Source of the DNA: Maribacter arenosus
GTDB taxonomy: Bacteria; Bacteroidota; Bacteroidia; Flavobacteriales; Flavobacteriaceae
DNA: 64,000 nucleotides
NCBI RefSeq assembly: GCF_014610845.1
Contig: NZ_JABTCG010000001.1
Coordinates: 868,001 to 932,000 of the forward strand
Reading direction: 5' to 3'
Part shown: piece after piece, positions 48,972 to 52,789 of the stretch
How the letters are laid out: each line of letters starts with the position of its first letter
Position numbering within the stretch: the stretch's first letter is position 1
Made by a program: the position numbers and the translations under genes
The notes under the pieces: model-generated
What the model saw: the letters and a program-made list of their open reading frames with translations, nothing else
The model's database searches: none
What the model was told of the DNA's origin: nothing

Positions 48972-50006
48972 ATGAAAATATTGGTCACAGGTGCAGCGGG
49001 TTTTATTGGTTTTCATACTACTTTGAAATTAATAGCCAACGGTCATGAGGTTGTCGGACTTGACAATATCAATGCCTATTATGATGTAGGTTTAAAATTT
49101 GGACGCCTCCAAGAATTAGGTGTCGGTAAAGAACAAGTGGAAAAATTCGATGCACTTGTAGAAAGTGAAAAATACAAGGGAAGGTTTAAATTCGTGCGAA
49201 TGAACCTAGAGGATGGGGATGCCCTGTCTAAACTATTTAATTCACAAAATTTTGATGTGGTCTGCCATTTAGCTGCCCAAGCAGGGGTACGCTATAGTTT
49301 GGAAAATCCCGAAGCCTACATCGATAGTAATGTTGTAGGTTTTTTAAATCTACTCGAGTGTTGTCGCCATCATAAAATTAAACATTTGGTCTATGCCAGC
49401 AGTTCCAGTGTCTATGGTTTGAACACGAAAGTGCCTTTTAAAACTACGGATAATGTGGACCACCCGATTAGTTTGTATGCTGCCACTAAAAAAAGCAATG
49501 AGCTGATGGCCCATACCTATAGCCATTTATTTGGATTCCCGACCACAGGCCTCCGTTTTTTTACGGTCTATGGGCCATGGGGAAGGCCAGATATGGCCTT
49601 GTTCCTTTTTACGGATGCTATGATAAAAGGCAAACCCATCAAGGTATTCAACAATGGCAATATGGCACGTGACTTCACCTATGTTGATGATGTTGTTGAG
49701 GGCGTAGTGCGTATTATTGAAAAAAGCACTTTGGAAAGATTAGCCAATAAAGAATTGTACAAGCTCTATAATATTGGGAACAATAAATCGGTGAAATTAT
49801 TGGATTTTATTACAGCTATAGAGACAAGTTTGGGTCTTACTGCAAAAAAAGAAATGCTGCCCATGCAACCCGGGGATGTTGCCATAACCTGGGCCAATGT
49901 GGATGATTTGATCCGAGACTATGACTATAGTCCCAATACCCCCCTAAAAAAAGGGGTGGATTCTTTTATCGGCTGGTATAAAAGGTATTATAAAATCCCA
50001 AATTGA
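48972..50006 (+). CDS. UDP-glucuronate 4-epimerase-like NAD-dependent epimerase
   Basis: This 344-residue extended SDR resembles the CapI/LpsL group, which interconverts UDP-GlcA and UDP-GalA. Features are VTGAAGFIGFHTTLKL (NAD loop), LAAQAGVRYSLENPEAYIDS, the catalytic SSSSVYG and YAATKKSNEL, and FFTVYGPWGRPDMALFLFTD, which is typical of this branch. UDP-GlcA would come from the ugd gene at 52796. Only repeat DNA separates it from the next gene, so it ends its own transcription unit. Confidence 0.85.
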   Translation: MKILVTGAAGFIGFHTTLKLIANGHEVVGLDNINAYYDVGLKFGRLQELGVGKEQVEKFDALVESEKYKGRFKFVRMNLEDGDALSKLFNSQNFDVVCHLAAQAGVRYSLENPEAYIDSNVVGFLNLLECCRHHKIKHLVYASSSSVYGLNTKVPFKTTDNVDHPISLYAATKKSNELMAHTYSHLFGFPTTGLRFFTVYGPWGRPDMALFLFTDAMIKGKPIKVFNNGNMARDFTYVDDVVEGVVRIIEKSTLERLANKELYKLYNIGNNKSVKLLDFITAIETSLGLTAKKEMLPMQPGDVAITWANVDDLIRDYDYSPNTPLKKGVDSFIGWYKRYYKIPN

Positions 50007-50873
50007 ATTTTAAGATTCGATTTAAGTTTCTTTAAAATTCCAATTACATATGTATTATCTATCCTCAATGAATTGTCATTTCGAAGGAACAAAGTGACTG
50101 AGAAATCTCACTCCTAACTCTGAACAATTCATATTCGCTCAGCAGGATGTGATTCCTCACGTGCATTCGGAATGACTGCTTATGTCATTTCGAAGGAACA
50201 AAGTGACTGGGAAATCGCACTCCTTGCTCTAAACGATCTTATTCGCTCAGCAGGATGTGATTCCTCATGTGCATTCGGAATGACTGCTTATGTCATTTCG
50301 AAGGAACAAAGTGACTGAGAAATCCCACTCCTAACTCTAAACAATCTTATTCGCTCAGCAGGATGTGATTCCTCACGTGCATTCGGAATGACTGCTTATG
50401 TCATTTCGAAGGAGAAACGACTGAGAAATCACATCAAGTAGAGTGGTAAGTTAGAATTGTAGCATGGATGCCAATCTGGATGTGATTCCTCATAGGCGTT
50501 CGGAATGACTGCTTATGTCATTTCGAAGGAACAAGGTGACTGAGAAATCCCACTCCTAAATCTAAACAATCCTTATTCGCTCAGCAGTATGTGATTCCTC
50601 ATAGGCATTCGGAATGACTGCTTATGTCATTTCGAAGGAACAAAGTGACTGAGAAATCTCACTCCTAACTCTAAACAATTCTTATTCGCTCAGCAGGATG
50701 TGATTCCTCATGTGCATTCGGAATGACTTCCCCGTCATTTCGAAGGAACAAAGTGACAGAGAAATCGCATTGCGGCGAGCAAAAGTCCTAAAAAATATAT
50801 TATAGTTGAAATGTAGGATGTGATTCCTCACCTGCGTTCGGAATGACTGAAACACGAATGGAATTACGCAGTC

Positions 50874-51252
50874 ATTTCTTAGTCGCTCCTTCGAAATCTC
50901 AGACGGAACAATTATATTTATCTATGCTTCATAACTACTTTGTTTATATCATGACCAACGAATATAGAACTACACTATACATTGGAATAACCAATAATAT
51001 TCAAAGAAGAATCGCTCAACATTATTTTGACAGTCAAAATGCGAAAAAGTCTTTTGCAGGTAAATACAATTGTATCTATCTAGTTTATTATGAAGGTTTC
51101 GAAAAACCAAATGAAGCAATTGCCAGGGAAAAAGTATTGAAAAATTGGCGACGGGAAAAGAAAAACAAGTTAATCACTGAATTTAATCCAAAATGGGAAA
51201 CACTCAATAGTCAAATCATTTAGTCATTTCGAAGGAGGAACGACTGAGAAAT
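50874..51252 (+). mobile_element. Candidate nuclease cassette bracketed by inverted repeat pieces
   Basis: ATTTCTTAGTCGCTCCTTCGAAAT at 50874-50897 is broken here as ATTTCTTAGTCG plus CTCCTTCGAAAT. On the other strand it matches the left end of a repeat unit found at 51226-51252, apart from one base change and a three-base gap. The GIY-YIG gene lies exactly between. This gives terminal inverted repeats of about 24 bp, as in a small mobile unit. No target-site duplication is evident because both ends lie in repeat DNA. Confidence 0.45.
50924..51223 (+). CDS. GIY-YIG endonuclease domain protein (UPF0213/YhbQ-like)
   Basis: This 99-residue single-domain nuclease has FVYIMTN as the GIY part, LYIGITN as the YIG part, the Arg in NIQRRIAQHY and the catalytic Glu in AIAREKVLKNW, all in order. 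It may nick or cut DNA, with no separate DNA-binding domain. An upstream in-frame ATG at 50843 would translate repeat DNA, so the ATG at 50924 is preferred. The stop TAG (51221-51223) shares its G with the first base of the next repeat. The intimate fit with the array suggests the gene and repeats move or are maintained together, which is inference. Confidence 0.85.
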   Translation: MLHNYFVYIMTNEYRTTLYIGITNNIQRRIAQHYFDSQNAKKSFAGKYNCIYLVYYEGFEKPNEAIAREKVLKNWRREKKNKLITEFNPKWETLNSQII

Positions 51253-51790
51253 CACATCAAGTAGAGTGGTAAGTTAGAATTGTAGCATGGATGCCAATCT
51301 GGATGTGATTCCTCACCTGCGTTCGGAATGACTTCCCCGTCATTTCGAAGGAACAAAGTGACTGAGAAATCCCACTCCTAAATCTAAACAAATCTTATTC
51401 GCTCAGTAGGATGTGATTCCTCACCTGCGTTCGGAATGACTGCTTATGTCATTTCGAAGGAACAAAGTGACTGAGAAATCTCACTCCTAACTCTGAACAA
51501 TTCATATTCGCTCAGCAGGATGTGATTCCTCATGTGCATTCGGATTGACTGCTTATGTCATTTCAAGTAAACGGAGTGATCAAGAAATCACATTACGGCG
51601 AGATTAGCCCCTACGCATTAAACGAAGGATAAAACTATTTTTTATTCTCAGATTTACAATTAGCCTATTCAATAAAACCTAAAACGCGAGTGTAGCAATC
51701 ACTTTATCGGATTTAAGCTAGACTTAAAATAAAATAGTCCCCATTTTTAAATTCTTTTATAGACCTTTGCATCTTTATTATTAAGATCTA

Positions 51791-52789
51791 TTGGAAATTT
51801 CTAATCTTATACTTAGTCCAAACTATAAAATATTGGTGACTGGAGGGGCTGGTTTTATTGGCTCAAACCTCTGTGATACACTTATTGCCAATGGCAACAA
51901 AGTAACTTGCCTGGACAATTTTGCTACAGGGAAAAGGGAAAATATTGCCTCTTTACTATCCAATACCAATTTTACCTTAATAGAAGGGGATATTCGAAAG
52001 TTGGAAGATTGCCATAAGGCTTGTACAGGTGTGGATTATGTGCTGCACCAAGCCGCCTTGGGTTCTGTGCCAAGATCTATCAATGACCCTATTACAAGCA
52101 ATGATGTAAATGTCTCCGGTTTTTTAAATATGTTAGTAGCGGCAAGGGATGCAAAAGTAAAGCGTTTCATCTATGCTGCAAGTTCATCCACCTATGGTAA
52201 TTCCAAAAACATGCCTAAAGTGGAGGACATCATTGGTAAACCATTGTCCCCCTACGCCATCACCAAATATGTAAATGAACTCTATGCGGATATTTTTAGT
52301 AAAACCTACGGATTGGAAACTATAGGCCTGCGCTACTTCAACGTTTTTGGCCGTAAACAAGATCCCAATGGGGCTTATGCTGCGGTAATCCCTAAATTTG
52401 TGATGCAATTAATGCAGCACGAATCCCCAATAATTAATGGGGATGGTAGTTTTTCGAGGGATTTTACCTATATCGACAATGTCGTTGAAATGAACATACG
52501 GTCTATGCTAACTGATAAAATTGAAGCCGTAAATACGGTGTACAATGTGGCGTATGGGGAACGTACTGATTTAAATGAACTTGTAGGCCTCCTTAAGCAA
52601 TACTTAAGTGGCTTTGATAAGAAAATTGCGGATGTAAAAGTTGTATATGGTCCTACCCGTCAAGGTGATGTTCCGCATTCCTTGGCGTCCATTGAAAAAG
52701 CAAAAAAACTATTGGGCTATGACCCACTATATGATATTAAAACAGGATTAAAGGAAGCTGTATCCTGGTATTGGAATAATTTAAAATAG
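51791..52789 (+). CDS. WbpP-like UDP-N-acetylglucosamine 4-epimerase
   Basis: This 332-residue extended SDR resembles WbpP, which makes UDP-GalNAc from UDP-GlcNAc. The NAD loop is LVTGGAGFIGSNLCDTL. QAALGSVPRSINDP, AASSSTYGNS, PLSPYAITKYVNELYA and RYFNVFGRKQDPNGAYAAVI are the marks of this branch. Translation seems to start at TTG (51791), since no ATG lies between it and the NAD loop. ugd follows six bases after the stop, so the two form an operon start. The wbpO-like gene further down would oxidise the product to UDP-GalNAcA. Confidence 0.88.
   Translation: MEISNLILSPNYKILVTGGAGFIGSNLCDTLIANGNKVTCLDNFATGKRENIASLLSNTNFTLIEGDIRKLEDCHKACTGVDYVLHQAALGSVPRSINDPITSNDVNVSGFLNMLVAARDAKVKRFIYAASSSTYGNSKNMPKVEDIIGKPLSPYAITKYVNELYADIFSKTYGLETIGLRYFNVFGRKQDPNGAYAAVIPKFVMQLMQHESPIINGDGSFSRDFTYIDNVVEMNIRSMLTDKIEAVNTVYNVAYGERTDLNELVGLLKQYLSGFDKKIADVKVVYGPTRQGDVPHSLASIEKAKKLLGYDPLYDIKTGLKEAVSWYWNNLK

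Follow-up and report, generated by a model that had tools for sequence, protein, structure and literature searches.

A small GIY-YIG nuclease gene between GTC-tagged palindromic arms: a probable REP-type mobile unit amplified into a tandem array in Maribacter arenosus

Introduction

Tandem palindromes and the gene of a small GIY-YIG nuclease share one intergenic gap in the genome of Maribacter arenosus, and the locus raises the question of whether enzyme and repeats form a single system. The window analyzed here (the whole stretch of 64,000 nucleotides, positions 868,001 to 932,000 of contig NZ_JABTCG010000001.1) had been the subject of an earlier note, in which a REP-like system of enzyme and repeat was proposed; this proposal was partly supported. 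Judging from the comparisons below, the locus is probably a REP-type mobile unit whose enzyme is the small GIY-YIG nuclease and which was amplified locally into a tandem array.

Structure of the repeat array and the nuclease gene

The array around the GIY-YIG gene consists of ten full units of 101–114 bp and a partial eleventh, with seven units preceding the gene and three following it. It is surrounded by epimerase, dehydrogenase and glycosyltransferase genes. The features of the locus are as follows.

48972..50006, + strand: left neighbour gene, NAD-dependent epimerase family; the array occupies the intergenic gap behind it
50075..50847, + strand: upstream array of seven units arranged head to tail, every unit being a dimer of inverted arms tagged with GTC
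50075-50176, 50184-50284, 50292-50392, 50400-50509: full units 1-4
50517-50618, 50626-50727, 50734-50847: full units 5-7
50734..50847, + strand: unit with the third spacer type, adjoining the gene
50871..50904, + strand: gene-proximal degenerate arm GTCATTTC...GAAAT, its inverted-repeat partner being the first arm downstream
50924..51223, + strand: GIY-YIG nuclease gene, 99 aa, small subclass (PF01541, E 1.3e-16)
51223..51549, + strand: downstream array, three full units
51223-51332, 51339-51440, 51448-51549: full units 8-10
51557..51605, + strand: partial eleventh unit with a degenerate left arm
51791..52789, + strand: right neighbour gene, a second epimerase-family gene

About ten units of this length with common ends had been described in the earlier note, and the unit start GTCATTTCGAAGGA was indeed found in all ten, and the unit end TTCGGAATGAC in nine of them, with TTCGGATTGAC in the last. 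The short linkers reported there were also recovered, with a measured range of 6–7 rather than 6–8 bases, and the placing of repeats on both sides of a 99-residue GIY-YIG gene agreed with the unit count and the domain match. The array was detected independently by Tandem Repeats Finder, with periods of 108 and 109. Within each dimer, the left arm reads GTC-ATTTC...GAAAT and the right arm ATTCC...GGAAT-GAC; the stems (ATTTC/GAAAT or ATTCC/GGAAT) are 5 bp long, the loops are longer and the tail is not CCA. Each arm can pair with itself, and left and right arms can pair with each other, as the hairpin pairing expected in the earlier note implied. The base preceding GTC was T in seven of the ten units, C in two (50733 and 51338) and the stop-codon A in one (51222). 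By eye, seven units carry one spacer type, two a second (50400 and 51223) and one a third (50734); a spacer resembling that of 50734..50847, again by eye, was present in the arrays of two congeners at the same site (L227 of G152 and L231 of G149).

When three units were folded as single-stranded DNA, z-scores of −2.8, −1.8 and −4.4 were obtained. Units that fold this well, in an array between epimerase, dehydrogenase and glycosyltransferase genes, could be imagined as a terminator or an RNA-level regulator of the surrounding sugar-nucleotide genes, the nuclease gene being there by accident. The chance that this is so appears negligible, given that three congeners have the same neighbours without the array and that the same gene occurs with the same kind of arm in unrelated surroundings in other genera. 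Moreover, no Rfam match was found in 49900-51900, and a structured RNA was rejected on this ground.

The nuclease ORF comprises 126 aa when read from its first start, and the last base of its stop codon, TAG (51221-51223), is the first base of a unit, as had been noticed before. In an alignment of 10 sequences, Y6, Y17, G19, R27, E64 and N83 were invariant and H31 was nearly invariant (numbering of the first sequence); these conserved positions are those expected at the active site in the GIY-YIG superfamily. The nearest solved structures by sequence were the UPF0213 proteins PDB 1zg2 (E 2.8e-08) and 1ywl (E 2e-06), which are distant nonetheless. The label "UPF0213-type" used in the earlier note is approximate: it fits the nearest structures, but the class examined below is a subclass of the window gene's relatives and not UPF0213 genes as such. 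A reading as a defence system was set aside, the PADLOC matches being weak and covering part of the domain.

Framing of nuclease genes by inverted repeats

Relatives of the window protein were identified by a search in 79 of 149 genomes of the taxonomic family. From the longer match list, 60 regions were chosen so as to favour multi-copy genomes and close orthologues; two of them gave no nuclease gene, and together with four loci of the window's own genome the set amounted to 68 nuclease genes in 24 genomes. Framing was scored free of any motif, as the best local match of the 300 bp upstream of a gene to the 300 bp downstream, taken as reverse complement; neighbouring genes that were 100 codons or longer and separated from the nuclease by no less than 1 kb served as controls. 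In this set, in which multi-copy genomes were favoured, a score of at least 15 was reached by 30/68 nuclease genes versus 1/336 control genes (Mann–Whitney p 3e-23 over all scores), and 38/68 nuclease genes scored below 15. A finder based on motif hairpins with a 6-bp stem detected hairpins on both sides of 18/68 family genes versus 0/336 controls; since the arms of the window, like many others, escaped this finder, the motif-free score was taken as the main test.

The comparison was extended across phyla by a scan of one genome per species (84,980 species), from which the best 80 of 573 confirmed stretches were used; four of the 80 loci lay too close to contig ends and were dropped, leaving 76. 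A score of at least 15 was observed for 43/76 of these nuclease genes versus 2/260 controls, with 33/76 below 15. Both comparisons gave a positive outcome for a test proposed in the earlier note, namely whether such nuclease genes lie beside or inside repeats more often than expected. The titles of the best 80 of 573 stretches named Bacteroidota, Alpha-, Beta- and Gammaproteobacteria, Chloroflexi, Patescibacteria, Saccharibacteria, Verrucomicrobia, Clostridia, Mesoaciditogaceae, Treponema and others, some by genus only.

Local multiplicity of the genes was observed as well: at L116 (G013), two nuclease copies with identical protein lie 1036 bp apart, and at L111 (G087), four different nucleases lie within ∼6.2 kb.

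Arm architecture and the matching of enzyme and repeat

Among the best 80 of 573 stretches, the typical arm is ordered as GTC, a stem-loop starting with AT and a final CCA or CTC, as in GTCATTCCCGCGAAAGCGGGAATCCA (L175) and GTCATCCTGAACTTGATTCAGGATCTC (L206). Among genes scoring at least 13, the upstream repeat had a GTC at its outer end, or close to it, in 24/43 cases in the family and in 42/48 cases drawn from the best 80 of 573. A complement of the five bases that follow GTC was present nearby in 16/24 tagged stems in the family (shuffled mean 3.7, maximum 10) and in 25/42 across all phyla (shuffled mean 5.5, maximum 13); these counts, far above the shuffled means, indicate that the stem is kept although its sequence varies. 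Where a 6-bp-stem hairpin was detected, the tags pointed outward upstream of the gene in 20/21 (family) and 28/34 (all phyla) and downstream in 20/23 and 21/28, respectively. In its basic form, the unit consists of the nuclease gene with a palindromic arm on one side and an inverted arm on the other, ∼400 bp in all, with the GTC tags mostly outward.

In multi-copy genomes, the upstream flank of a gene was matched better by its own downstream flank than by every swapped partner in 46/62 cases, a result that is not explained by the genome-wide abundance of one repeat. Protein identity was compared with repeat similarity by a Mantel test, from which 6 of 144 genes were dropped for lack of a usable protein and 52 of the other 138 for a score below 13. 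For the 86 genes retained, r was 0.30, and the largest value of 5000 permutations was 0.13. Repeats were alike (similarity at least 0.5) in 83% of the 29 pairs with more than 75% protein identity versus 4% of the 1857 pairs at 45–55%. By these comparisons, enzyme and repeat diverge together, with a correlation that is modest and owed in part to shared ancestry.

Sites with and without the unit

Corresponding sites were compared in the window's genus (12 genomes) and in relatives of G044 (60 genomes), which yielded 38 stretches at six loci. Twenty of these were short gaps without gene or arms, five carried other sequence without arms, and 13 held a unit, an array or remains. Arm-end scores over the whole stretch (26–33 possible) were 6–12 in the 25 arm-free stretches and 15–31 in the thirteen others; three of the 25 arm-free stretches surpassed the highest of 20 shuffles, in each case by 2.

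At the L012 locus, the neighbours' aligned ends lie 14–17 bp apart in five relatives without the unit and 446 and 471 bp apart where it is present (the own genome and G032). At the L010 locus, the ends are 10 bp apart in three relatives; G158 has a full-length unit, and the units of five others are decayed or duplicated in part. One unit is located in the histidine operon. Its immediate neighbours are a glutamine amidotransferase gene and a His_biosynth gene, by position hisH and hisA, respectively, which are flanked in turn by IGPD and another His_biosynth gene; in three relatives, the two immediate neighbours are directly adjacent. The window array itself is missing in G032, G150 and G151, where 126–257 bp separate the aligned ends of the epimerase-family neighbours, and is present in G152 and G149 with other spacers. 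A target-site duplication or exact junction was sought by eye, and none could be defined, the flanks of the empty sites being 66–89% identical.

Because these sites lack gene and arms alike, it is probable that the gene comes in together with its arms, as a single unit of ∼400 bp. Clean short gaps in several relatives favour insertion, and absence could in part reflect loss. Flank similarity was also assessed for nucleases that share at least 75% identity, paired between different genomes and with enough flank (eight short-flank pairs were dropped), and 62 of the 92 pairs had no similar flank on either side.

The same sites bear on homing, that is, on a jump of the nuclease gene into palindromes already present, in the way that homing endonuclease genes enter their targets. 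The genes are located between repeat arms, and the best PHROG match of the window nuclease is phrog_5123 (E 5.1e-05), a family of phage GIY-YIG homing endonucleases; yet all 25 gene-free stretches at the six loci are also without arms, which would leave homing a short internal site at most. Nor was a bare dimer found at the same place: the stretch L242 has a lone arm-like remnant beside unrelated sequence, and the array stretches L227 and L231 could not be judged for this purpose (assembly gap, contig end). With empty sites free of arms, homing into existing palindromes was disfavoured, and only a small probability is assigned to it.

In three stretches (L250, L256 and L260), 23S_rRNA_IVP (PF05635) genes were observed at the same intergenic sites that hold a GIY-YIG unit in relatives. 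They have imperfect inverted repeats of their own, as judged by eye, and L254 may hold a remnant; these genes with their repeats may represent a second kind of single-gene element.

Repeat number and dispersal

The left-arm pattern of the window was present in 41/149 genomes. At least five matches were found in 14/79 genomes with a nuclease relative versus 1/70 without one (p 6e-4), and in 8/10 genomes with a close orthologue versus 7/139 others (p 5e-8), so that repeat number tracks gene presence, a correlation for which the earlier note had proposed a test. Within 1 kb on each side, 4–20 arm tags were counted for seven window-clade genes and 0–3 for 61 others, three further close orthologues being left out of this count. 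Two genomes, G134 and G036, depart from a simple rule. G134 has a close orthologue and yet no match to the arm pattern; its arms read GTCATGTTGACGATAGGAAACATC, a compensated variant.

Repeats common in genomes without the nuclease had been named in the earlier note as evidence against its proposal. G036 has 13 arm matches, seven of them in one array of eight units, and no nuclease was detected in it at E 1e-8, nor a remnant in the array region. This array without a detectable nuclease counts, on sequence grounds, against a strict dependence of the repeats on the enzyme. The orphan array (L247, G036:C9, ∼74883-75872) comprises eight dimers, whose other arm has the compensated stem ATATC/GATAT.

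In the 4.17-Mb genome of the window, all nine matches to a strict left-arm pattern fell within the window array; a looser pattern gave 12 matches, three of them at C1:663694-666973, and the bare tag GTCATTYCGA gave 41, of which 19 were in the array (13 for a reversed-pattern control). The window repeat is therefore nearly confined to its own locus, and dispersal in trans is not evident in this genome. At L049 (C1:663694-667059), two related arm clusters flank ∼3 kb with two genes, a segment that looks like a possible insertion into an array.

The same genome has nine PF01541 genes. Each of the four of the small subclass is framed by an inverted repeat, and the repeat sequences differ among the four; the scores were 14 for the window gene (the arm at 50871..50904 with the first downstream arm being its best inverted repeat), 27 for the L010 gene, 26 for the L012 gene and 14 for the L013 gene. 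Scores of 8–10 were obtained for the five other GIY-YIG genes, namely one UvrC-like, two of ∼470 aa and two beside tRNA genes. The last two, L015 (C20:178799-179011) and L016 (C12:261393-261590), encode 85–86 aa beside tRNA-Pro and tRNA-Leu genes; an apparent second partial tRNA copy with an inserted palindrome lies beyond the gene, and they are possibly a tRNA-associated relative of the nuclease-palindrome arrangement. A second array-like cluster, with longer GTCACTTCGAGTGG-type repeats, surrounds another GIY-YIG gene (L013/L052, C18:146201). Just two matches to Y1 transposases were found in this genome, each with an in-frame stop and on another contig, and a Y1 transposase as the mover was disfavoured on these grounds.

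The GIY-YIG superfamily reportedly includes site-specific nucleases (Ssn) that act on ssDNA only and have repeated genomic targets (a study in Nature Communications in 2025). The window nuclease probably belongs with these enzymes, its cleavage of DNA being putative. Like the Ssn enzymes, it is a small GIY-YIG domain protein whose cognate sequence recurs in the genome, in this case chiefly inside one array. An alternative holds that a host or passenger nuclease of this type cuts repeat-bearing single strands, for example limiting or shaping DNA uptake, that another enzyme or replication slippage moves the palindromes, and that gene and arms are linked since the gene needs a nearby target or rides as cargo. 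Such a function is reported for Neisseria Ssn, and among the best 80 of 573 stretches is a Neisseria sp. gene of the window nuclease's own protein family that has palindromes on its flanks (L186); the window repeats are amplified locally and scarcely dispersed, and the G036 array has no detectable nuclease. Against this stand the joint absence of unit and arms at many sites, the framing of the gene by arms with mostly outward tags, and, among Y1 transposases as the one family searched, the two interrupted matches on another contig. We regard this alternative as rather unlikely.

Discussion

The preferred reading, a REP-type mobile unit with a small GIY-YIG nuclease as its enzyme, rests on genome comparisons, which showed that the gene and its cognate arms co-occur, co-diverge and are jointly present or absent at the same sites in relatives. 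As a mechanism, the nuclease would recognize its own GTC-tagged hairpin as single-stranded DNA, on the lagging strand or in DNA incoming during transformation, and would cut beside it; repair or strand transfer could then copy the unit, or gene-free arm dimers, to new places. Movement driven by the nuclease is inferred by analogy with RAYT/REP. In the window, the dimers would have multiplied around the gene, most simply by tandem duplication between direct repeats. The array seems to turn over between species, with different spacers and with the arm ends kept.

A broader reading is put forward tentatively, at somewhat less than even confidence: GIY-YIG nucleases may be the mobilizing enzymes of CGTC/TGTC-tagged REPs from Bacteroidota and Pseudomonadota to Patescibacteria and Chloroflexota, and these REPs with their enzymes may be minimal mobile elements without a transposase or recombinase, in the form of one gene of ∼100 codons between two GTC hairpins. 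With a candidate enzyme that accompanies CGTC-tagged REPs, the question of their origin could be tested using a single purified protein and a short DNA. Movement driven by the nuclease, if real, would be a means of mobilizing DNA without a classical transposase. The many pairs of nuclease and arm also provide a natural inventory of sequence specificities that DNA-cutting enzymes are likely to have. Given the reported Ssn work, the idea of a nuclease with its repeat is probably not wholly new. A link of GIY-YIG nucleases to REP-type repeats was absent from the literature matches listed, many journals lying outside the search; as far as that literature goes, three points read from sequence appear to be new, namely the general association with CGTC-type REPs, the structure of the unit together with its empty sites, and its occurrence as a tandem array.

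In a 2013 survey (Di Nocera; PMC3733652), REPs are divided into GTAG- and CGTC-tagged superfamilies, and the CGTC repeats are apparently without a dedicated transposase. They carry a CGTC, TGTC or CCTC tag at one end, a stem of 8–9 bp starting with AT, a loop of 4–5 and a tail that is mostly CCA, and they occur predominantly as inverted dimers, most spacers being 20–100 bp, in five phyla including Bacteroidetes (PMC3733652). The window resembles this description in its GTC tag and its ten inverted dimers, and differs in its 5-bp stem, long loop, tail other than CCA and tandem clustering. The stem, loop and tail so described agree exactly with the flanks of some relatives, such as L094, whose arm consists of GTC, the stem ATTCCGCA, the loop CTTGA and the tail CCA. 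Unlike the CGTC-tagged REPs of the 2013 account, the repeats studied here have a GIY-YIG gene between the arms.

In a study of RAYTs (REP-associated tyrosine transposases; PMC2817692), RAYT genes are flanked by two inverted REPs, about a third are associated with larger arrays (BIMEs), and RAYT and REP trees are compared. As in this RAYT/REPtron arrangement, the enzyme gene lies between inverted REPs, a likeness that holds at the level of the class (the window gene scores 14 and has a degenerate upstream arm). In contrast to it, the enzyme belongs to the GIY-YIG nucleases (PF01541) rather than to the HUH/Y1 transposases, and GTC takes the place of GTAG as the tag. With co-localization, repeat number and joint presence at new sites all positive, the parallel with RAYT/REP is well founded.
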